A stretch of DNA of 24,635 nucleotides, taken from the IMG/VR virus record IMGVR_UViG_3300020281_000124, positions 1 through 24,635 of that record. The stretch is one strand, 5' to 3'. Of the stretch, positions 8,141-24,535 are shown one piece after another (within the stretch, counting starts at the first letter, position 1; the number at the start of each line of letters is the position of its first letter). Under the pieces are notes generated by a model. That model was not told the DNA's origin. It did not search any database and saw nothing but the letters and a program-made list of their open reading frames with translations. Origin of the DNA: a virus. The position numbers and the translations under genes were made by a program.

Positions 8141-9394
8141 TTATTCTTTTTTATGAGCAGCGCCTTTTAAAACAAGAGGACTGCTTGCTTCAAATATTGG
8201 AGTTCCTATTCCAATTGGCAAGGGCTTTGTCGGTTCAAATTTTGGAAGTAAAGGTAACAATACTAAAAAATGTATAAAGTAATATGCAGTTGCAATCCTA
8301 CTAAGTGTTACGTATATTCCTTCAGCTGGCATAGCACCGAGATATCCTAGTGCAATACAGTCTACAAACAGTATCCAAAAGAATATTTTGTATAAAGGTC
8401 TAAATTGTGAAGATCTAATAGGTTGCCTGTCTAACCATGGAAGAATAAACAGAACCATTATTGCTCCAAACATTAATAGTACGCCGCCTAACTTATCAGG
8501 AACTGCTCTTAGTATGGCATAAAACGGTAAGAAATACCATTCAGGCACGATGTGAGCTGGTGTTACCATTGGATTAGCCGGAATGTAATTATCTGGATGT
8601 CCCATAAAGTTTGGAAAGAAGAAAACTGCTGCAGCGAAAAAAGTTAAAAATACTCCAAGTCCAAACAAGTCTTTGATCGTATAGTATGGATGGAAAGGCA
8701 GTGTGTCTTGTTTACCTTTTATGTCAATACCAATCGGATTATTACTACCAAATCTATGTAAGGCGACTAGATGTAATATAACTACGCCGACTATTACAAA
8801 TGGCAGTACAAAGTGTAAACTAAAAAATCTATTTAATAAAGCTTGATCAACGCTAAATCCGCCCCATAACCAAGTAACAAACTGTTCTCCTACCAGAGGG
8901 ATAGCGCTAAATAGATTTGTTATGACTGTTGCACCCCAAAAACTCATTTGACCCCATGGCAAGACGTATCCCATAAAAGCTGTGGCCATCATAAGTAAAA
9001 GTATTAATACTCCTAATATCCATAACAACTCTCTTGGTGCTTTATACGAACCATAGTATAATCCTCGAAAGATATGTATGTATGTTACTATGAAAAAGAA
9101 ACTGGCTCCATTCATATGAATGTATCTTATTAACCAGCCGTGATTAACGTCTCGCATTATTCTTTCAACACTGTCAAAAGCATAATCAACATGAGCGGTA
9201 TAGTGCATGCTTAAAACAATACCAGTGATTATCATTATCACAAGTGTGATACCTGATAAGCTACCAAAATTCCACATGTAGTTTAAATTTTTAGGTGTTG
9301 GATATTCAGTTAATTCATGATTTAAAAAAGAAAAGATTCCTAATCGGTAATCAATCCAATTAACTACAGGATTTTTAAATTTAGATTTTGCCAT
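8141..9394 (-). CDS. petB: Cytochrome b of the bc1 complex (complete)
   Basis: A complete 417-residue cytochrome b, the quinol-oxidising membrane core of respiratory complex III. All four haem ligands are present with 14-residue spacing: H93 and H107 in helix B, H194 and H208 in helix D. Qo-site elements are [19 protein letters not shown] (142-160) and P284-E285-W286-Y287. Qi-site H213 and K241-D242 match proteobacterial positions. Eight hydrophobic helices are visible at about 44-64, 92-112, 121-145, 191-212, 243-262, 301-320, 334-355 and 363-383. Length fits alphaproteobacterial cytochrome b. No Rieske protein or cytochrome c1 gene is in the window. The ATG overlaps the stop of a tiny upstream ORF (TAATG), and the gene shares the nrdJ transcript. 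Finding it among T4-like phage genes is highly unusual. Confidence 0.95.
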
Positions 9395-16008: not shown

Positions 16009-16737
16009 TTAGTCCTTTTTATTTGTTACTTTATTTACTGCATCTAGCAGTTCATTCATAGTCTTTCCAAATATGCCGTACTTATCATGTTTTTCAACAT
16101 CTTCCATCTTAGCTGTTGGATCTTTTATAGGTGTTGCACTTGGCTTAATATTTCTATCGCCACTTGCCACGTTATCCCCGCCAGATCTCTTCTTGGCTTG
16201 TTTCATCTTTTTGTCGGCTTTATCTTTTTCATTAGCCTCTAAAGATTTTTTAACGTCTAAGTCTGCAGCTCCAGATTTAATTTTATCTTGAGCTCCTTTA
16301 GCCATATCCATAGCTCCTTTAGAAGATTGACTTTTATCAAGTATACCTTCTGGTGTAGTAGCGCTCTTGTAATGCGCTGCTCTGTCGCCTTCAAGCACAG
16401 AAATTAATTTTTCTCTAAAAGTCATTGTACTTTCTTTCATTTTTGGTTTTTCGTGTGTATATCCCATCTTTGAAAATTTTGCATGGTCCATTGGTGTTTT
16501 TGCTGTTACTTCTTTTCCAGTCTTTGGATCATACATCATATGTGGATATTTCACTGCTTCTTTCTGATCAGCAATTTTATTTGCCAAATCTTTTTTCATA
16601 GTAACCGGATGAGTCTTTCCACCAAAGTTGAATTTCTTCTTACCGGCTTTTGCGGCTGCAGCTGCTGCGCCATGGAAGGCGGTTCTTTCATTTGCTGGAA
16701 TCTCCTCAGGTATATGATACTTTATACTTTCTTCCAT
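16009..16737 (-). CDS. Alanine/lysine-rich late protein (242 aa)
   Basis: A 242-residue low-complexity, highly charged protein. ATG 16737 is chosen over ATG 16758 because AAAGGAG lies 7 bases before it, and it avoids overlap with the upstream gene. Features include HGAAAAAAKAGKKKFNFGGK, then YPHMMYDPKTGKEVTAKTPM, and an internal MTFREKLISVLEGD at about 105. That stretch resembles the T4 head-protease target seen at the N-terminus of nearby proteins. The C-terminal half is mostly Lys/Ala/Asp linkers, ending in a helix (MNELLDAVNKVTNKKD). It may be a head-internal or scaffold-like protein. Function unknown. Confidence 0.65.
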   Translation of the reverse strand: MEESIKYHIPEEIPANERTAFHGAAAAAAKAGKKKFNFGGKTHPVTMKKDLANKIADQKEAVKYPHMMYDPKTGKEVTAKTPMDHAKFSKMGYTHEKPKMKESTMTFREKLISVLEGDRAAHYKSATTPEGILDKSQSSKGAMDMAKGAQDKIKSGAADLDVKKSLEANEKDKADKKMKQAKKRSGGDNVASGDRNIKPSATPIKDPTAKMEDVEKHDKYGIFGKTMNELLDAVNKVTNKKD

Positions 16738-16748
16738 GGGATTCTCCT

Positions 16749-17033
16749 TTACATCCATACGTGAGCCACATAGGCTCCAAGTACAGCAACAATTAGTGCC
16801 ATACCAATCTTATTTATAATTCCTACAGTTCTTGAGTTATCGTCAACTGTTTTCTGTATCTCGTCTAATTTTACTGAAAGTTTATTTAATCTTTCTCTCA
16901 TATTCTCGTGATCGTCTTGCAATGCTATTATTTTCTCCTCTGCTCTCGCCAAAGAAATCATAGCATCAGCGAGCTTGTCTATCTTTTGCTCGATCCTATC
17001 TAATCTTGATTCAGTTGTCTCGTTCTGAGCCAT
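16749..17033 (-). CDS. Coiled-coil protein with C-terminal membrane anchor
   Basis: A 94-residue protein starting at ATG 17033 (MAQNETTESRLDRIEQKIDK). An in-frame ATG at 17078 exists but lies only a few bases from a late-promoter-like CATAAATA (17084-17091) and has no ribosome site, whereas AAAGGA lies 10 bases before 17033. The body is a heptad-rich coiled coil to about residue 72, and the C-terminal 20 residues (GMALIVAVLGAYVAHVWM) form one transmembrane helix. The layout matches short tail-anchored proteins common in marine T4-like phages. Role unknown; holin-like accessory or membrane tether are options. Confidence 0.68.
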   Translation of the reverse strand: MAQNETTESRLDRIEQKIDKLADAMISLARAEEKIIALQDDHENMRERLNKLSVKLDEIQKTVDDNSRTVGIINKIGMALIVAVLGAYVAHVWM

Positions 17034-17083
17034 ACTACTGTAATCCTTTAGTATTTGATGTATGAGATCTTTGTCCATAAATA

Positions 17084-17091
17084 TATTTATG
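17084..17091 (-). promoter_or_regulatory. T4-type late promoter variant CATAAATA
   Basis: CATAAATA on the minus strand differs from the T4 late consensus TATAAATA by the first base. It lies in the 120-base gap before the coiled-coil gene and 51 bases upstream of its preferred ATG at 17033. This position is consistent with a short leader carrying AAAGGA. Such AT-rich octamers occur by chance, so the intergenic position is the main support. Confidence 0.45.
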
Positions 17092-17094
17092 TGA

Positions 17095-17151
17095 TGTCAT
17101 AAAATTGACACCAATAAAAATATGACAGTTATTTTTGTCAAAAAATTGACA
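17095..17151. repeat. Two copies of a 16-bp TGTCA-N6-TGACA palindrome
   Basis: TGTCATAAAATTGACA (17095-17110) and TGTCAAAAAATTGACA (17136-17151) match at 15 of 16 positions. An extra TGACA lies between them (17123-17127). The second is a perfect palindrome with TGTCAA/TTGACA arms and a 4-base centre. They fill the largest gap in the late cluster. On the minus strand TTGACA at 17136-17141 is 17 bases from TTTATT, so one copy may double as a -35 box. An operator for a repressor or activator is possible. Confidence 0.6.
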
Positions 17152-17153
17152 GT

Positions 17154-17294
17154 TCATCTTTTTCCTTGACCTCTATACTTTTTAAAACTTCTTCTCTTAT
17201 GCTTATTCATAGTTGAAGTTATTGGCTTGCGTCCAATTGTAGTACCATGCTTCTTTGGTTCATGTACTGAAACTGTACGAAATAACTTTGCCAT
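17154..17294 (-). CDS. Tiny basic protein (46 aa)
   Basis: A 46-residue protein MAKLFRTVSVHEPKKHGTTI then GRKPITSTMNKHKRRSFKKY and a short basic tail RGQGKR. It is extremely basic. The KHGTTIGRKPxTSTMNKHKRRxFKKYRGQG layout is one I recognise from tiny conserved marine T4-like phage proteins. The ATG at 17294 overlaps the upstream stop (TAATG), supporting a real coupled gene. Likely binds nucleic acid or acts within the head; function unknown. Confidence 0.68.
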   Translation of the reverse strand: MAKLFRTVSVHEPKKHGTTIGRKPITSTMNKHKRRSFKKYRGQGKR

Positions 17295-17458
17295 TACTCA
17301 GCTTTCCATATTGTCCATATACCATAAGCGATCGCGAGACCTGCAGCAATCTTTGCTAATGGTGATAAAAATAATATCATAAGACCAAGAGCAACACAAA
17401 CCGCTCCGTCCATAGATGTTCTTTCTTTCATTCTTTCTTTAATCCAATATTTGATCAT
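17294..17458 (-). CDS. Small membrane protein (54 aa)
   Basis: A 54-residue protein that starts at ATG 17458, overlapping the upstream stop (TAATG), and ends overlapping the next start in the same way. The first 16 residues are basic (MIKYWIKERMKERTSM). Then comes a hydrophobic region of about 30 residues (VCVALGLMILFLSPLAKIAA and GLAIAYGIWTIW), which forms one long or two short membrane segments. It ends KAE. Could be a holin-like or other small membrane protein; no family is recognised. Confidence 0.65.
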   Translation of the reverse strand: MIKYWIKERMKERTSMDGAVCVALGLMILFLSPLAKIAAGLAIAYGIWTIWKAE

Positions 17459-17778
17459 TACCACTTTTCCTTATCTGCCCAGTATGCCGCTGACATTTTA
17501 CCTTTAGCTATGTTTTTAGCGTGTCTGGCTTTAAATGATTTGCGTCTTGCTTTTTGTCTATCAGATTCTCCTTTCTTAGGAGCTCCTGCAGTGCTTACGC
17601 CTTGTTGTCCAAACCTTATAGTTTTTATTTTATTTCCATCTTTTGCTACCACAATATGAGAACTAGTCGGATGATTTGGAGTACGTTTTGCTTTATTATA
17701 ACCAGACACTCCTGCAGCTTTAAGTCTTGGATCTTTTTCTTTTTCTAGTATAAATTTTTTAAATCTATCCAAACTCAT
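17458..17778 (-). CDS. DUF6321-like basic phage protein
   Basis: A 106-residue basic protein. RFGQQGVSTAGAPKKGESDR then KARRKSFKARHAKNIAKGKM and SAAYWADKEKW match the DUF6321 signature common in marine T4-like phages (GxxxKxRxxSFxxRHxxNIxxGKxSAAYWAxxxxW). The N-terminus MSLDRFKKFILEKEKD carries the F-x-x-F-I-L-E pattern shared with neighbours and with the T4 capsid-targeting leader, so it may be cut after Glu and packaged. The start overlaps the upstream gene by 14 bases. Function of the domain is unknown. Confidence 0.75.
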   Translation of the reverse strand: MSLDRFKKFILEKEKDPRLKAAGVSGYNKAKRTPNHPTSSHIVVAKDGNKIKTIRFGQQGVSTAGAPKKGESDRQKARRKSFKARHAKNIAKGKMSAAYWADKEKW

Positions 17779-18520
17779 GACCTGCTATCCTTTTCATTTG
17801 TCTATTAAACTCTGCTTGATCTGGTTTTGACTTATACAACTTTTTAGTAAGTGCACTATTTTTCTTACCTTTGATTCTGTACTTGTAACCTTTTTCTTTA
17901 TGTTCAGGATCTGTAGTCTTTACTAGTCTTCTCTTATACTGCGCTTCATAAGACTCTGGTCCTTTTGGAGCATCAGTTTTTCCTCTCATCCCTTCTTTAA
18001 CATTTTCACCGGGTGTTATCTTTTTCATCAGCCTTACAGACTCTGGCGAACCATAATCATACTTATATTCACTCTTTATTTCTTCTCTTCCTTGAGCTTT
18101 ATCTCTAAAAGCTTTTCTCTTTTTTGCTTTTGTGGTTCTTTCAACATCTGTTATCATGGAAGGTTGTTTAACTATCTTTCTTAATTTTTGTAATAATTGC
18201 CCTGGAGTCTTGTCATCCATATACATGTCTGGCAGACCTGCAATTGAAACTTTATAACTACCTTCTTTTTGTACAGCTTTTTTTACTGGTTTTTTAGTTC
18301 TGTCTAGCTCTGGTTTAGTTCTGTTTCTATTAATTTGCGAGAATAACTTTAAATTATTACCAGCTAACTTAGCCTCTTTTTGACTATCACGCTTATCAAG
18401 ATATGCAGCAATAGCCATCTTATGTCTCTTCTCTTTAGACTTACCTTTAAACTGTGGAGCCTTAGACTTTCTAAAGTCTTTTACGTAGTCTCCGGCCGTT
18501 GCATTTTTTCCTAGTGGCAT
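17765..18520 (-). CDS. Basic conserved phage protein (251 aa)
   Basis: A 251-residue very basic protein. The opening MPLGKNATAGDYVKDFRKSK then APQFKGKSKEKRHKMAIAAY is a motif I recall from T4-like marine phage proteins. Much of the rest is Lys-rich linker. A small domain lies at about 92-125 (YKVSIAGLPDMYMDDKTPGQ), with a strand pair and helix, and the C-terminus ends FNRQMKRIAGHEFG. High charge and position in the late cluster suggest DNA binding inside the capsid, which is inference. No enzyme motif seen. Confidence 0.65.
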   Translation of the reverse strand: MPLGKNATAGDYVKDFRKSKAPQFKGKSKEKRHKMAIAAYLDKRDSQKEAKLAGNNLKLFSQINRNRTKPELDRTKKPVKKAVQKEGSYKVSIAGLPDMYMDDKTPGQLLQKLRKIVKQPSMITDVERTTKAKKRKAFRDKAQGREEIKSEYKYDYGSPESVRLMKKITPGENVKEGMRGKTDAPKGPESYEAQYKRRLVKTTDPEHKEKGYKYRIKGKKNSALTKKLYKSKPDQAEFNRQMKRIAGHEFG

Positions 18521-18521
18521 G

Positions 18522-18743
18522 TTACTTTGCTTTCATTGCTGTTTGCATGGCTTTCATTAAGTTATTCATATCTTTTGAAAGAACTTGAATATATCTACCT
18601 CTTTCACCATAATTGATTTGATAACCTATACCACCTTTAAGACGAGTCTTTGTAATTTGTATTCCAAATTTATCATAGACGTCTTCGCCTTCTTCAATTT
18701 TCTCAGGTTGCACAACATCAAGAATTGCTTGTCTTAAACTCAT
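18522..18743 (-). CDS. Small phage protein (73 aa)
   Basis: A 73-residue protein starting MSLRQAILDVVQPEKIEEGE, then a small beta-rich domain (KFGIQITKTRLKGGIGYQIN) and a C-terminal amphipathic helix (KDMNNLMKAMQTAMKAK). I do not recognise the family. The start overlaps the previous stop by four bases. Its second half resembles a strand-strand-helix unit also suggested in the neighbouring 251-residue protein, but the sequences are not clearly related. Confidence 0.6.
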   Translation of the reverse strand: MSLRQAILDVVQPEKIEEGEDVYDKFGIQITKTRLKGGIGYQINYGERGRYIQVLSKDMNNLMKAMQTAMKAK

Positions 18744-19435
18744 TTCATACTCCCTACTTTTTTACGAGTACCAAATGCTTTAGTATCGCCCTTGTCCATC
18801 ATACCTTTCATACCAGCTGCTGGATCTGCTTTACCGTGATAGCCTTGTGCGTACCCTGGTTTTAATTTTTTAATCTTACCGCCTTTGGCTTTGAAAGCAT
18901 CAATTGCTTTTTGATGTGCTGCTTTCTCTGCATCAGACATTCCTTCTTTCTTGGTTAATCTTTTGGTGGCTCTATCAATACCGCGCATTCTCATTGCTGC
19001 TTTACGTTCTGGACTTTTCTTATAGTCTTGTTGTGGATGTGAACCGCCTACTGCACTTATTGCATCAACCTGTCCTTGATCTCTACCTTTAAAGTATGCA
19101 TCTCTTGAAGCTTTACCGATATAATTTGCTGCAGTTCTTTTTGATATTTCTTTGACTGTAGCTTCTCCTACTGACTCTTTTTTCTTCTTCTTACCCTTAC
19201 CACTAAGATCAGAATCGGCACCGTAATAAGTACCTTTACCTTTTCCTATGTACGAGTTGACTCGAGCCATTCCCCACTGCTGTGGTGTAGTCCCTGGTCT
19301 ATGACCTGTTCTCCAAGCTGCCATTCCTCTATTATATACTTTTTTTAAAGTACCGTAAGATATACCGGATTTAGCTGCTTTTTTCTTGAGTCCTTCATTT
19401 TCGAGTATCTCTTCGAATGTTGAAAATTTAAGCAT
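18740..19435 (-). CDS. DUF5824-like basic phage protein
   Basis: A 231-residue protein. The motif KKAAKSGISYGTLKKVYNRG then MAAWRTGHRPGTTPQQWGMA and RVNSYIGKGKGTYYGADSDL (about 17-76) is a highly conserved phage block that I associate, with some uncertainty, with DUF5824. Its compact, Trp/Arg-rich form suggests nucleic-acid or portal/head contact. The rest is basic and low-complexity. The N-terminus MLKFSTFEEILENEG matches the shared F-x-x-I-L-E leader, so head targeting and cleavage after Glu are possible. The start overlaps the nucleotidylyltransferase gene by eight bases. Confidence 0.75.
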   Translation of the reverse strand: MLKFSTFEEILENEGLKKKAAKSGISYGTLKKVYNRGMAAWRTGHRPGTTPQQWGMARVNSYIGKGKGTYYGADSDLSGKGKKKKKESVGEATVKEISKRTAANYIGKASRDAYFKGRDQGQVDAISAVGGSHPQQDYKKSPERKAAMRMRGIDRATKRLTKKEGMSDAEKAAHQKAIDAFKAKGGKIKKLKPGYAQGYHGKADPAAGMKGMMDKGDTKAFGTRKKVGSMK

Positions 19436-20612
19436 TTGTTACACCCCTGTTTTTTAATTTTCTAATTTTGGCTCGATCTAACATGCGTGCATGTTTCATC
19501 TTGTCAACCATTTTTTCTCTTTCTATTTTCTTTTTAGCTAAAGCAACTGCGTCTTCTCCGTACATTCTTCTATATTTAAGTGTATGTACACTTGGCTTAG
19601 TCTTAGCTGTCTTATCGCCCGGAGCTTGTTTATAAGCTGCAGGATTATCATCATCGTACTTACCGTACTTCTTAAAGTGCGCAAGTCTTTTTTTCTTGGT
19701 AGACTTACCTAAACCCTTATAGTATACAGAAGGCTGACTCCCTTTTGCCTTTTTAACATCTTTATCTTGTGCGACTTCTTTTTTTCTTTCTTTCTCTAAA
19801 AGCTCAACAGAGTCAAGCCACTTTCTGTAGTGTTTACCATCTTGCTCAACAATAACATAATTGCTTCCAAGACTGGTAACACGAGCGAGTTGGTCACTGC
19901 CCACGATAGTAACACAATCACCAACACTAAACAGATTTCCTTTAACATATTCCTCCCGTTTTTCTGAAACTGGAGCAAAATTTAGAGTGTTATGGTACTG
20001 CTTAACTTCTTTAAGTCCCATGCCTTTTCTTACTTGATTATACGCTTTTTTCGCTTCGGCGTTTGAAACACTTTTTGGCAACCCCTGAGAGAACTGAGCA
20101 AAGTTTCCTTCTGCTGCAACCTTTCTCATCTTTGATGCTGACATGCCCGAAACATCGTCTGCATCTGGATCCCTTTCTCCAGCTGAAATGGTATTAATTC
20201 TACTAAAGTTATATAAACCGTGCCTTCCTTTAATACCATTATATTTGTTGAGTAAGGTATTAAACTCCATAACTCGATCAGAGCCGACGACCATTGTTAA
20301 GTTCTTATACCCTTCGTTAAATAATCTAGTAGCGACATCAAATACATTTTTAATCTTTTTGTCAAGTATAACTTGTCTTGCATGTTTTGGAAAGAACCTT
20401 CTTACCATCTTTACTTTTTCTTGATAAGGAAGTGGATTCTTCTTCTTATCCTCGCTTTGAGACAAGAATACTTTATATGAGTTCTTTCCAGACTTTTTCG
20501 CTAACTCGTTCATTAGTTTTTCATGACCAGTAGTTGGAGGATTCATTCTACCAAAAGTAAAATAAACAGTTTTTTCTTCTTCAACTAGGTATTGTTTAAA
20601 AGAGTTTATCAT
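19428..20612 (-). CDS. Nucleotidylyltransferase with C-terminal SH3/KOW-like domain
   Basis: A 394-residue protein. Residues about 15-175 form a HIGH-superfamily nucleotidylyltransferase: GRMNPPTTGHEKL (21-33) holds the T/HxGH motif with H30, VVGSDRVMEF (108-117) fits the central strand, and GMSASKMR (156-163) is the S-x-S-x-x-R motif. Such enzymes transfer AMP or CMP, for example in NAD or lipid-precursor synthesis. Residues about 226-272 look like a small beta-barrel (SVGDCVTIVGSDQLARVTSL), SH3/KOW-like. The tail is basic. The N-terminus MINSFKQYLVEEEK matches the leader shared with neighbours. It overlaps the preceding stop by one base. An enzyme delivered in the virion is an inference. 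Confidence 0.82.
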   Translation of the reverse strand: MINSFKQYLVEEEKTVYFTFGRMNPPTTGHEKLMNELAKKSGKNSYKVFLSQSEDKKKNPLPYQEKVKMVRRFFPKHARQVILDKKIKNVFDVATRLFNEGYKNLTMVVGSDRVMEFNTLLNKYNGIKGRHGLYNFSRINTISAGERDPDADDVSGMSASKMRKVAAEGNFAQFSQGLPKSVSNAEAKKAYNQVRKGMGLKEVKQYHNTLNFAPVSEKREEYVKGNLFSVGDCVTIVGSDQLARVTSLGSNYVIVEQDGKHYRKWLDSVELLEKERKKEVAQDKDVKKAKGSQPSVYYKGLGKSTKKKRLAHFKKYGKYDDDNPAAYKQAPGDKTAKTKPSVHTLKYRRMYGEDAVALAKKKIEREKMVDKMKHARMLDRAKIRKLKNRGVTNA

Positions 20613-21913
20613 TAACTTTTTTTCCTCATCACTTCTTTCTTACGAACGTCTTTAAACATTCTTTTTGATAATACTTTAATTCTTCTTTGCAATGCTGGAG
20701 ACTCTAGTCTTTTTTCTATCTCTCTTTTTCTAGCAGGAGTAAGATCTCTTTTTGGTATTCCTCTCGTAATCTTTTGAGCTATAGCATTTCTAGCTTGTCT
20801 ATCAGATCTTCTTTTAAGAACTTTTGTATTAGCCATTCTCTTCTTTGCGCGTCTTCTACCAACTGCAATACGTGCTTTGTTGCGCCTCATGTCTCTTTTC
20901 TTTTTCATTCTTTGAGCCATGGTTAAAGCTTCTTCAACGTTTTCTTCATAGATCTTGTCTATTTCTTTTTTAACTTTAGGATCTTTTAAGAGATCTTTTG
21001 AAATCTTTTGAATAGCCGTTTTCTTATCAATTTGAGATTTCATATTAAATCTCTTATCTCTTATTATCTTTATTGCGGCTTTGACTTGATCTGCTGCAGA
21101 TAAATTCTTTACTGCTTCGTCAACTGATTCTTTTTTATTCTTTTCAGCTTCTTTTGCTTTTCTCTTTGCAATATTAGATGGGTGTAATGGATGTTTTAAA
21201 CCGTATGGAGATTTTGGGTATGGATCTCTTTTCTTTGGTCTACCTCTTAGATCCATAGGATCAACCATTTCTTTATGAATATCCATTCTAGTTCCTGATG
21301 GAGTCTTGACATAATTCTTTACTTTATAGCCATGCTTCTTTGCAAAAGCTTGTCCGTCTTTTTCTTTGTGATAACTCTTCATGTGTAAGTGTAAATGTTT
21401 ATCACCTGGCTTTTTAATCATACTTGGAATTTTCTTAACACTCATACTTCCGTTTGAATGTGTTTGAGCGTCACGATGAGCGTCATCGTGATTAATAGCT
21501 TCATTTGTTTTCTTCGGATACATTCTAAATACTTTAGCACGAGCTTTATCTAAATACTTTTTCTTATTCATCATGTAGTCTCTTGGATTCTTTGCAAGAG
21601 TTTTAGCATGTTTAATTATATCTGTAGGTTTAGTTGGCTTAAGAACTGAAGCTTCTTTCTTAATAACTTCCTTATCAGTCTTGACCATTCTGACTCCGAC
21701 TTTACCATCAGGCTTCGTATATTTCTCTGGTTTTTTATCAGCACTTTGCACAGAGTTATATAAGTCGTCTTTAGCTTGCGTAGCAACTTTCTTGCGCATA
21801 TACTTACTTACGCCTTTTTTACCTTTAACCGGTACTTTTAAATTTGGAAGTTTTTTGTCTTTTTTCATCGACAGTTCGTTCATCAAGTCGAAAAAAGATT
21901 TTAATTGGGCCAT
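20612..21913 (-). CDS. Very basic late protein (433 aa)
   Basis: A 433-residue, extremely Lys/Arg-rich protein. It starts MAQLKSFFDLMNELSMKKDK, a variant of the shared F-x-x-L-x-x-E leader. A small domain lies at about 165-215 (KHLHLHMKSYHKEKDGQAFA, then KKHGYKVKNYVKTPSGTRMD). The C-terminal third (about 330-433) is a series of basic helices (AQRMKKKRDMRRNKARIAVG). The composition suggests a DNA-condensing or head-internal protein, possibly counteracting DNA charge in the capsid. No enzyme motif seen. It shares single-base start/stop overlaps with both neighbours. Confidence 0.65.
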   Translation of the reverse strand: MAQLKSFFDLMNELSMKKDKKLPNLKVPVKGKKGVSKYMRKKVATQAKDDLYNSVQSADKKPEKYTKPDGKVGVRMVKTDKEVIKKEASVLKPTKPTDIIKHAKTLAKNPRDYMMNKKKYLDKARAKVFRMYPKKTNEAINHDDAHRDAQTHSNGSMSVKKIPSMIKKPGDKHLHLHMKSYHKEKDGQAFAKKHGYKVKNYVKTPSGTRMDIHKEMVDPMDLRGRPKKRDPYPKSPYGLKHPLHPSNIAKRKAKEAEKNKKESVDEAVKNLSAADQVKAAIKIIRDKRFNMKSQIDKKTAIQKISKDLLKDPKVKKEIDKIYEENVEEALTMAQRMKKKRDMRRNKARIAVGRRRAKKRMANTKVLKRRSDRQARNAIAQKITRGIPKRDLTPARKREIEKRLESPALQRRIKVLSKRMFKDVRKKEVMRKKS

Positions 21914-23139
21914 CAGTTCCTCCCTGGTTTATCCCATCCTTTTAATATATCTGGCGAAAAGTTTGCGTATGAGAACTCCATACGGTCCACAATTTTCACG
22001 GCATCACCACCAAGCTTGTCAATAGCTACATAACCTTCTTGACCTGTGGTTTGATAACCATTTCTAGTTTTTAAAAAAGTTTCTGTGCTATTTAACTTAT
22101 TAAGTATATTTATAAGTTTTAATTTTGCTAGAACAATAGATTTTTGTAAATCAAACATCATTTGTAAACTTATTTTATTTTGCGGTGAGAAGAATTTTAG
22201 TATTTCGTCTAATTTTTTCTGTTGAGCAGACTTTCCTTTTTCAGTCTTTCTTTTATCTATCTCTTTCTGAAACTTTTGTTTTATATGCAATATTAACTTC
22301 GCAACGTGGGCTTTGGTATTACCAATGACTTGGCCTTTTCGTACAAAAGTATTATTAAACGTTTCAATAAGTTGAGCAATGTCTTGGTTAGCCTCGAGAG
22401 TACGTAAGGTACTACCAGAAATTTTATTAAAAATCCTGCCAGCGTTACTAAGATGTGCATTGACTTCCTCCGTATCTTTCTTTGTCATAGTAAATCTTGT
22501 CATATCTCTTAACATCGCGTCTTGTGACCATACGTTTTTACTATTACGAAACTTACTAGTATCGACTCCATAAGATGCTTTCATAGTTTCAAAAGAGTTT
22601 CCAGTATAAGTGGTATGCCATACTATTCCAATCTTTGCTGCTTTAACTTTCTTTGCCGCTGCAGTTCCAGAAGGCACTGCATAAACTATGGTGTTTGGAT
22701 GAAAGGTTACATACGCCTTGCCTTTTATCTTTTTTGTCTTAATGTCACTTGTATCAAATAAGAAGTCGCCTTGTATAACTCCTTTGATACCAAGATCTGG
22801 TAAGTACTTAAGAGCATTTTTTAATTTTAAATTGAGATCACCATCAGTATCAGCATCGATATCAGCGTTATTCTTGTAAACTTTTGGAGTGGCGTTAAAT
22901 ATCCCTTTCTTAGCAACAAAAAATTTACCATCACGAGGATCAGTGCCACAAAAAATAGCTGGTGCTCCATCCCATTTAACGCTAACGTTTCCATCTTTGA
23001 CTCCTCCTAGCATGTCTCTAAGAGAACGTAGAGCAAGTATAGCTTGTCTCGTTCCGTCGACTCCACCATATAGGACTTTGTCCTCGATATGAGTCATATG
23101 AGTATTTTTTTGTTCTGCTATAAATTCTGCAAAATTCAT
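21913..23139 (-). CDS. DUF6267 family protein with ligase-like KxDG motif
   Basis: A 408-residue protein of the DUF6267 type found in marine T4-like phages. After the leader MNFAEFIAEQKN comes a helical region and VSVKWDGAPAIFCGTDPRDG. K55-x-D57-G58 looks like motif I of covalent nucleotidyltransferases (DNA/RNA ligases, capping enzymes). Possible later motifs are IQGDFLFDTSD (about 141-151) and IGIVWHTTYTG (about 185-195), but the match is loose. The C-terminal half is helical. A ligase or nucleotidyltransferase activity is a hypothesis, not established for the family as far as I know. The N-terminal leader closely matches T4 internal protein leaders (YQEFIAEA). Confidence 0.75.
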   Translation of the reverse strand: MNFAEFIAEQKNTHMTHIEDKVLYGGVDGTRQAILALRSLRDMLGGVKDGNVSVKWDGAPAIFCGTDPRDGKFFVAKKGIFNATPKVYKNNADIDADTDGDLNLKLKNALKYLPDLGIKGVIQGDFLFDTSDIKTKKIKGKAYVTFHPNTIVYAVPSGTAAAKKVKAAKIGIVWHTTYTGNSFETMKASYGVDTSKFRNSKNVWSQDAMLRDMTRFTMTKKDTEEVNAHLSNAGRIFNKISGSTLRTLEANQDIAQLIETFNNTFVRKGQVIGNTKAHVAKLILHIKQKFQKEIDKRKTEKGKSAQQKKLDEILKFFSPQNKISLQMMFDLQKSIVLAKLKLINILNKLNSTETFLKTRNGYQTTGQEGYVAIDKLGGDAVKIVDRMEFSYANFSPDILKGWDKPGRN

Positions 23140-23140
23140 T

Positions 23141-24535
23141 TTATATATCCTTTAAGAATCTCTTAAAATCTGAAGTTAAAAACGCTGTTACGGACGGTTG
23201 AGACGTCCAAGTGCCAGAACCTTTGTATCTCATCGCAATATCTATGGCTGGCATCTTACCAATAGTTAATTGCATTCCTAAAACAGCAGCAGTTCCAGTA
23301 AAAGATTGTCTATCTACTTTTATTTTAGGTTTTTCTTTTTTAAGAAGTTCTGCAACTTTTATTGAGACTGTATCGACTGGTATGACATCAGCTTTTTCAA
23401 CTACTGGACCGCTTTTTAAATATCTACCAACGCCTGTAATTAATACAAAATTAAAATTAAAATTTTCTAATTCTTTTAAATCTGTCTTTAGTACCAATTG
23501 CATGATTTTCTGTGCGATTGTATCTTGTTCTTTTTCAAACATATCTCCAATTCTACCGAAGATACTATCTCGACCTTTTAACTGATCATTAAAGAACTTA
23601 TTTGGTAATCCAGCGACAAGTTGTTTCCATGTTGGTCTTCTCGTGTTACGATCTCTGTTTGCTTTCTTCTGAGAACCAGACGGTACTAATGCTTGAGCTT
23701 CTGCATTCTTAATTACTTTATTAATCATGAAGTCTTGTAGCGTTTCATTATATCTGTCCACAATTTCTTTTGAAGTAAATAAATTAGAAACAGATTTATT
23801 TAGTAGCGTAGGATCTGCAGACGTGCTTCTATCTTTCTTTTTTAGAGAAACTCCATAGAACTTAGCACCTTTTTTAATTACTATGTCAGACGAGTTAAAG
23901 TCTTTCATACCATAAGCGTTTCTCTTAAATTTTTCAATAGTTTTATTCCACACTCTACCAGTAACATAAGCGGTTGTACCTACACCGCCACAATATTTTT
24001 GAAATCCAACTGCAGCTGAAAATGCTTGACAAAAATTAGTATAGTCTCCATCAATGGCATCAAATTCTTTTTGATCGTAATCTTTTACTTTACTTGGAAT
24101 TACTTTTTTAACCTCGTCTACCAAAGCGTCAAGTTCAACTATATCTTCAGGAATTGATCGAGGTAATACCATACAACACAGACCAGCTGTTAATAGTTCG
24201 TTTGGATCAGTTTTGCCTCTCTTACCGTTAGGCTTTGTTTGAACTACTATATCTTTATCAAATTGTTTAACTCTAAATTTATAATCTTTTGTTGCACGAG
24301 TAGACGTGATCTCTATAAATTCATATTCATCTTCATTAGATAAAAATTTATTTACTGCAGTAACATATTGACGTCTTTTATTATCTGGTAATGTTTGAGT
24401 AAGAGTTATAGATTTTCCAGTTTCTTTTTTTATGCTAGTGTCTTCAATATCAAAGCCTGAAACAGCAGATGCAATATCTTTTGCTGCTTTGATAGCAGTT
24501 TCGTTTTCCATCAGATATCTCCTAAACCTTAACAT
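23141..24535 (-). CDS. Phage protein with possible PD-(D/E)XK nuclease fold
   Basis: A 464-residue protein conserved in style with marine T4-like phages. DPNELLTAGL (E113) followed by SSDIVIKKGAKFYGVSLKKK (D217, K232-K234) resembles a PD-(D/E)XK core with the glutamate on helix 1, but this is inferred from pattern only. The start is ambiguous. ATG 24535 gives a leader MLRFRRYLMENE matching the shared F-x-x-Y-L-x-E pattern, but lies only five bases after the TATAAATA promoter, implying a leaderless mRNA. ATG 24511 has AGGAG 7 bases upstream and would remove that leader, giving 456 residues. The longer form is listed because of the leader match. Confidence 0.66.
   Translation of the reverse strand: MLRFRRYLMENETAIKAAKDIASAVSGFDIEDTSIKKETGKSITLTQTLPDNKRRQYVTAVNKFLSNEDEYEFIEITSTRATKDYKFRVKQFDKDIVVQTKPNGKRGKTDPNELLTAGLCCMVLPRSIPEDIVELDALVDEVKKVIPSKVKDYDQKEFDAIDGDYTNFCQAFSAAVGFQKYCGGVGTTAYVTGRVWNKTIEKFKRNAYGMKDFNSSDIVIKKGAKFYGVSLKKKDRSTSADPTLLNKSVSNLFTSKEIVDRYNETLQDFMINKVIKNAEAQALVPSGSQKKANRDRNTRRPTWKQLVAGLPNKFFNDQLKGRDSIFGRIGDMFEKEQDTIAQKIMQLVLKTDLKELENFNFNFVLITGVGRYLKSGPVVEKADVIPVDTVSIKVAELLKKEKPKIKVDRQSFTGTAAVLGMQLTIGKMPAIDIAMRYKGSGTWTSQPSVTAFLTSDFKRFLKDI

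Follow-up and report, generated by a model that had tools for sequence, protein, structure and literature searches.

The window, i.e. the whole stretch of 24,635 nucleotides of viral DNA analyzed here (IMG/VR record IMGVR_UViG_3300020281_000124, positions 1 to 24,635), probably carries a regulated late promoter, in which a T4-type box is coupled at fixed distance and phase to two 16-bp operators located 41-42 bp (four turns) apart. A dimeric protein, most likely encoded by the phage, would bind these operators and gate a lysis or envelope operon. The sites, their spacing and phase, their linkage to the box, the classes of downstream genes and the specificity of the locus within contigs were all computed or directly observed.

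Organization of the element in the window

The ORFs on either side are encoded by the minus strand, which is also the strand on which the element is read. Its components and neighbors are the following:

17294..17458, minus strand: upstream ORF of 54 aa, hydrophobic
17154..17294, minus strand: upstream ORF of 46 aa, basic
17136..17151, minus strand: D1, distal palindrome TGTCAATTTTTTGACA (TGTCAAAAAATTGACA as written in the window), centered at about -65.5 from the predicted start
17123..17127, minus strand: middle half-site, TGTCA (TGACA on the plus strand), weakly conserved
17095..17110, minus strand: D2, proximal palindrome TGTCAATTTTATGACA (TGTCATAAAATTGACA as written in the window), centered at about -24.5 from the predicted start
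17084..17091, minus strand: T4-late-type promoter box CATAAATA, 3 bp from D2 (4 bp from D2 to ATAAATA)
17076..17091, both strands: perfect 16-bp palindrome CATAAATATATTTATG, the first half of which is CATAAATA
16749..17078, minus strand: downstream gene of 109 aa, with a C-terminal hydrophobic segment and weakly XhlA/hemolysin-like, whose ATG is at the would-be +1 of a T4-type late transcript

Along the minus strand, D1 (17151-17136) begins 2 bp past the stop codon of the 46-aa ORF and is followed by the middle TGTCA (17127-17123), D2 (17110-17095), 3 bp, CATAAATA (17091-17084) and the ATG at 17078. Since the box is half of a perfect palindrome, a late box can also be read on the plus strand. 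An AT-rich stretch, often ATTATTRTAGG-like in relatives, comes after the middle half-site.

The original prediction had reported two palindromes at 17095-17151, 41 bases apart, with a third half-site between them and a late-promoter-like sequence directly downstream. Both palindromes are indeed exact TGTCAN6TGACA sites at these positions, their starts are 41 bp apart and the late-type box follows D2. The third half-site is present too, though loosely conserved: in relatives this position reads TGTCA, TGACA, AGTCA, AGACA, TTACA or others, and therefore is not a firm half-site. The geometry (about four turns) would also suit two dimers bound on the same face of the DNA, as had been proposed.

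D1 and D2 are the only exact TGTCAN6TGACA sites of the window. First-order Markov simulations of the window (n = 2000) gave a mean of 0.02 exact sites, and none of the 2000 contained two. With up to two mismatches, 11 sites were found versus 11.8 expected; this degenerate motif being at chance level, only exact sites count.

Recurrence of the element at fixed spacing and helical phase

The element consists of D1, 25-26 bp, D2, 4 bp and the late-type box. A scan of IMG/VR with the full pattern (D1, 23-28 bp, D2, then a late box at a distance of 1-7) recovered 50 stretches, versus none with a control pattern carrying reversed half-sites. Together with the window, these represent 51 elements and 37 unique sequences, in which the D1-D2 spacer is 25 bp (19 sequences) or 26 bp (18 sequences). 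When the sequences are counted with six more bases, D2 lies 4 bp from ATAAATA in all 38 unique ones. The loci were collected by exact pattern, which by itself makes their arms invariant, whereas the search did not fix the spacing, the further invariant columns of the alignment (for instance C28, A29 and T32) or the downstream genes. The contigs are related, so that the 50 stretches correspond to far fewer independent events. The boxes of relatives are TATAAATA, CATAAATA, AATAAATA or GATAAATA, and that of the window differs from TATAAATA at its first base.

A second scan, with D2 and the box alone, yielded 87 stretches; 80 of the 87 were listed and 43 of them, being new, were used, which gives 94 elements (51 + 43). 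When D1 is degenerate in the new loci, what often persists is its right arm, together with the middle (A/G)TCAAATTATTA. Several relatives have lost one arm of a palindrome and kept the other. Such one-sided losses fit protein-DNA half-sites better than RNA stems.

Pairs of palindromes were also collected with a pattern that contains no late box, which gave at least 120 stretches. Among the 120 stretches listed, 44 have a 25-26-bp spacer, and ATAAATA occurs within 60 bp downstream in 32 of these 44 loci and is missing from the other 12. Among the matches listed, the nearest ATAAATA is always at 4 bp (26 loci), 15 bp (two loci) or 25 bp (four loci). The loci in which this distance is 15 or 25 bp (L049, L099, L019, L030, L075 and L122) exceed the usual 4 bp by one or two turns. 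These steps of 11 and 21 bp match one and two turns of DNA and, with three spacing classes to go by, suggest phasing. Other D1-D2 spacings account for 76 stretches among the matches listed, and only two of them (L058 and L064), both within tandem repeats, have ATAAATA within 25 bp. Palindrome pairs devoid of a late box occur in other phages. Furthermore, TGTCAN6TGACA pairs or arrays lie at most 2.5 kb from proteins of a cluster to which large terminase subunits belong in L005, L020, L037, L059, L077 and others of 31 loci, which belong to different, diverse phage contigs (GC about 0.3 to 0.6). These terminase-linked arrays may depend on a regulator of the same family or represent a system of their own.

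Distribution among relatives, contigs and genomes

Relatives of the 109-aa protein were also fetched by protein and not by motif, and 80 of the 100 found were retained. Upstream of the gene, the full element is present in 23 of these 80 loci and a single exact palindrome in 10, whereas the other 47 have no palindrome there (L174, which belongs to these 47, has only 6 bases upstream). No exact palindrome was found in the 316,427 bases of these 47 loci. Conservation in close relatives, on which the original prediction was to be judged, therefore holds in part. The arrangement does recur at fixed spacing, and among the 80 retained it is complete in six of the eight closest relatives (97-100% protein identity), but the other two (L129 and L130, 97-99%) lack it and are among the 47 loci devoid of any palindrome. 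A plain ATAAATA is found upstream without palindromes in 11 of the 47 (L185, L186, L188-L192, L196 and L199-L201), and in many element-free loci the gene comes directly after the preceding ORF. Since the gene has relatives with and without it, the element acts like a module that a locus either has or lacks, and the gene can also be served by a plain late box.

In contigs scanned over their full length, exact palindromes are essentially confined to one locus: for instance, a single site in 81,635 bases (G002) or a pair in 43,831 (G013). One further exact site is present in each of G007 and G019, and four are present in G008, which belongs to another phage group. As most contigs are fragments, a single occurrence per genome is established only for the partial elements of the phages Mosig and Melnitz. 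The palindromes lie directly ahead of a late-type box, but being essentially limited to one locus per contig they are not general late operators. The pair at this spacing has 20 scattered matches in a collection of 84,980 species genomes of bacteria and archaea, none of them in a genome titled SAR11 or OM43. A DNA similarity search against named phages returned chance-level matches only.

Genes located downstream of the element

A short predicted membrane or secreted protein is encoded downstream of 82 of the 94 elements. These proteins fall into eight clusters without mutual matches (blastp, E 1e-3). The first downstream protein is XhlA-like with a C-terminal hydrophobic segment (32 elements), belongs to the "MPKISENTGV" (MPKIS) family, with an N-terminal hydrophobic segment (21), or to a signal-peptide family (19), resembles Melnitz gp96 (3), or is another short hydrophobic protein (7). 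Membrane character was assessed from the hydropathy maximum of a single representative of each cluster; signal peptides were recognized by eye. The 12 remaining elements include two followed by an ORF without hydrophobic segment (L299 and L326) and ten without ORF, among which three are cut by the contig end (L012, L068 and L218) and seven are perhaps chance matches (L301, L302, L303, L307, L309, L327 and L329).

Several isolates carry lysis genes as neighbors of these genes, i.e. CRP-823, HTVC027P, HTVC010P, HTVC121P and Mosig. A homologue of the XhlA-like protein (38% identical) is found in Roseobacter phage CRP-823, where its gene immediately precedes that of a holin and lies three genes ahead of an M15 peptidase. 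Homologues of the MPKIS family occur in 45 phage records, of which 40 bear the name of a Pelagibacter phage. These homologues are encoded two genes before an M15 peptidase in HTVC027P, three genes after an M15 peptidase in HTVC010P and four genes before a lysozyme in HTVC121P, and no lysin is annotated near the homologue of HTVC115P. The XhlA profile scores below the Pfam cut-off on the downstream gene of the window. The MPKIS family matches a holin PHROG at 3.8e-5 in a library used without cut-offs, and PHROG holin and spanin scores are weak. Considering these neighbors and weak profile scores, the downstream genes likely function in lysis.

In 26 of the 32 XhlA-type elements, the ATG begins 5 nt downstream of the box, a position that coincides exactly with the T4-type +1. 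The 15-residue N-terminal extension that begins there (18 unique sequences) has no in-frame stop, and stops occur in both other frames in all 18. Differences number 581 at third, 478 at first and 226 at second codon positions. This lack of in-frame stops and the excess at third positions indicate that the extension is coding. Four L019-type elements also have an ATG 5 nt after the box, and three of them precede a gene clustered with the MPKIS family. If the T4 spacing holds, a leaderless late transcript would be implied; an internal start is possible as well.

Partial elements in cultured phages

Mosig EXVC030M, whose host is SAR11, has one exact palindrome in 141 kb (record positions 140374-140389), followed by the middle-like motif TGTCAAATAATTACAG. 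It is flanked by the genes of a signal-peptide protein and of a GTA_holin_3TM protein, the latter scoring 25.8 bits against a cut-off of 24.8. Neither D2 nor ATAAATA comes after it. The only TATAAATA near it (in L281, i.e. Mosig 95000-141461) is 4 bp before the palindrome, the reverse of the usual order, which would place the palindrome over the start site.

In Melnitz, whose host is OM43, the 141 kb likewise contain one palindrome. Positions 21-69 of the element model match there (E 2.5e-4) and correspond to the middle, D2 and a variant box CTAAATA. This partial element precedes gp96-gp98-CsgF-CsgG, and the authors who described the CsgF/CsgG operon proposed that it regulates lysis (Buchholz et al. 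2022, PMC9004378). A partial element thus heads a curli/lysis operon; however, the passages of that paper on lysis control tie it to a glutamine riboswitch, and a search of the text of PMC9004378 found no occurrence of operator, palindrome or inverted repeat.

Melnitz and Mosig both encode gp55 and gp45, which were not found in the partial contigs (the window, G001, G002, G003, G007 and G013). Neither an exact palindrome nor a model match (E up to 1) was detected in HTVC008M, C48C1, DLP6, CRP-823, HTVC027P, HTVC010P, HTVC121P, HTVC202P and HTVC033P. HTVC115P and HTVC023P lack exact palindromes, and their model matches are weak (best E 0.14 and 0.04, respectively).

Proposed mechanism and alternatives

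From these data we infer a protein, its cooperativity, the late timing, the lysis function and the sign of control. A dimeric DNA-binding protein, most likely encoded by the phage, would bind D2 (about -17 to -32) as well as D1 (about -58 to -73), and binding would probably be cooperative across the AT-rich middle. These coordinates come from applying the measure of the T4 late box, which begins at -13; according to the section of PMC2988020 on these promoters, activated complexes reach 13 bp further upstream, a distance that corresponds to the span of the clamp. D1 and D2 would therefore lie on either side of the place where the clamp docks. The bound dimers would gate docking of the gp55/gp33 polymerase and of the gp45 sliding clamp just upstream. 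The promoter would serve an operon of small membrane or secreted proteins resembling a lysis or envelope cassette, and operator occupancy would set the lysis time. A phage-encoded protein is favored because the element is present in phages of both SAR11 and OM43. Comparison of gene contents revealed no convincing candidate for the regulator, several of the compared contigs being fragments. A broader picture, which we put forward tentatively, is a transcriptional lysis clock in marine T4-like phages of streamlined bacteria: one late promoter would be coupled to a looped operator that binds two dimers and surrounds the site of clamp docking, a phage regulator would time the lysis proteins and, in one lineage, the transcript would be leaderless from the ATG of the lysis gene.

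Concerning the sign of control, we lean slightly to repression relieved late, because D2 lies where the polymerase would sit; activation by contact would be nearly as likely. The same element could indeed act with the opposite sign, the dimers touching polymerase, gp33 or clamp from one helix face and forming a site-specific booster for one operon. This is possible rather than probable. Distances of 4, 15 and 25 bp leave D2 and the box in phase on the helix, which is needed more for contact than for steric blocking, and the deviant first base of the window's box also agrees with activation. However, in most elements D2 is centered near -24.5, inside the would-be footprint of the polymerase, and T4 late promoters, as portrayed in the relevant part of PMC2988020, are activated by the sliding clamp without upstream element.

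Alternatively, a host regulator could bind the sites, so that the phage would read host physiology for its lysis decision. This would account for the recurrence of the same half-site in arrays in other phages. Furthermore, PF13545 has matches in two of three alphaproteobacterial genomes tested, one of them over the cut-off, a weak point since all 14 control genomes match too. We nevertheless consider host control unlikely: partial elements are found in phages of hosts as unlike as SAR11 and OM43, and the 20 genome matches to the pair are scattered and include none titled SAR11 or OM43.

A replication origin with iteron-like repeats beside a promoter would also explain an AT-rich locus with repeated sites that is essentially unique in each contig. 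It is very unlikely, given the few classes of downstream genes, the fixed distance to the late box and the constant sign of the GC skew across the window. RNA hairpins acting in a read-through transcript as attenuator or processing signal are highly improbable as well. Each palindrome could fold into a 5-bp stem with a 6-base loop, but RNAalifold detected no compensatory changes (none of the 10 pairs changed on both sides, the arms being nearly fixed by selection), one arm is lost and the other kept in several relatives, positions 16500-17700 have no Rfam match and the sites lie upstream of the predicted start. Lastly, functionless chance palindromes inherited by descent, which would fit the many relatives, some of them very close, that lack palindromes, are hardly credible considering the 50 stretches versus none in the control, the fixed spacing and phase, and the presence of the same arrangement before dissimilar genes.

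Comparison with known systems

CRP recognizes TGTGA-N6-TCACA and CooA recognizes TGTCG-N6-CGACA. Like these CRP/FNR-type operators, the sites described here comprise two 5-bp half-sites and a 6-bp spacer, 16 bp in all. However, the half-site sequence differs, and no CRP-type HTH (PF13545) was found in six phage records (G000, G002, G007, G013, Melnitz and Mosig), four of which are partial contigs. Lambda-type operator arrays likewise place several sites for dimers next to a promoter at intervals of a few turns, whereas here the sites precede late-type boxes of T4-like phages. The Pho box, made of direct TGTCA repeats 11 bp apart, was rejected as a candidate, the repeats being inverted here.

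The element has the same type of 8-bp box as the T4-type late promoter (TATAAATA; gp55, gp33 and gp45), and gp55 and gp45 are encoded by Melnitz and Mosig, its cultured relatives. In the account of PMC2988020, T4 late promoters show no sequence conservation at the -35 position. By contrast, more than 50 bp are conserved upstream at fixed spacing here, at essentially one locus per contig. As T4 late promoters have no conserved upstream element, the element is a variant of the T4-type late promoter. T4 also encodes DsbA, a small DNA-binding protein whose sites overlap two late promoters and are A/T-rich and of low affinity (PMC2988020). DsbA sites are similar in being located at late promoters, but the passages of that paper on DsbA do not describe them as paired palindromes.

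For pelagimyophages, the corresponding section of PMC7029224 reported that attempts to predict middle and late promoters had been unsuccessful. We found no published description of the element in the literature searched, most subscription papers lying outside the search. If one late promoter carries a conserved operator, the clamp-driven late transcription of T4-like phages would gain a further layer of control. In phages of abundant ocean bacteria, the element occupies a position at which the timing of lysis, and with it the burst size, could be set. It also provides a sequence-defined element for testing, with partial versions in two cultured phages.

Other features of the window

The window also encodes a 417-aa cytochrome b of the bc1 complex (PF00033, 5.9e-78; 8141-9394, minus strand), located between phage-type ribonucleotide reductase and exonuclease genes. 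The same gene is found in the related contig G002 (40611-41864). Among 385 alphaproteobacterial genomes, the best match of the window's protein is 80% identical and comes from a 2.0-Mb genome, while identity to 1.2-1.5-Mb genomes is at most 74% among the matches listed. Since its cytochrome b is closest to that of a 2.0-Mb genome, the host of the window is not clearly SAR11. This gene is possibly a respiratory auxiliary gene.

Finally, several ORFs from 17458-24535 (minus strand) have similar short N-termini as judged by eye, for instance MLKFSTFEEILENE, MINSFKQYLVEEE and MNFAEFIAEQ. The capsid-targeting leaders of T4 internal proteins resemble these short N-termini.
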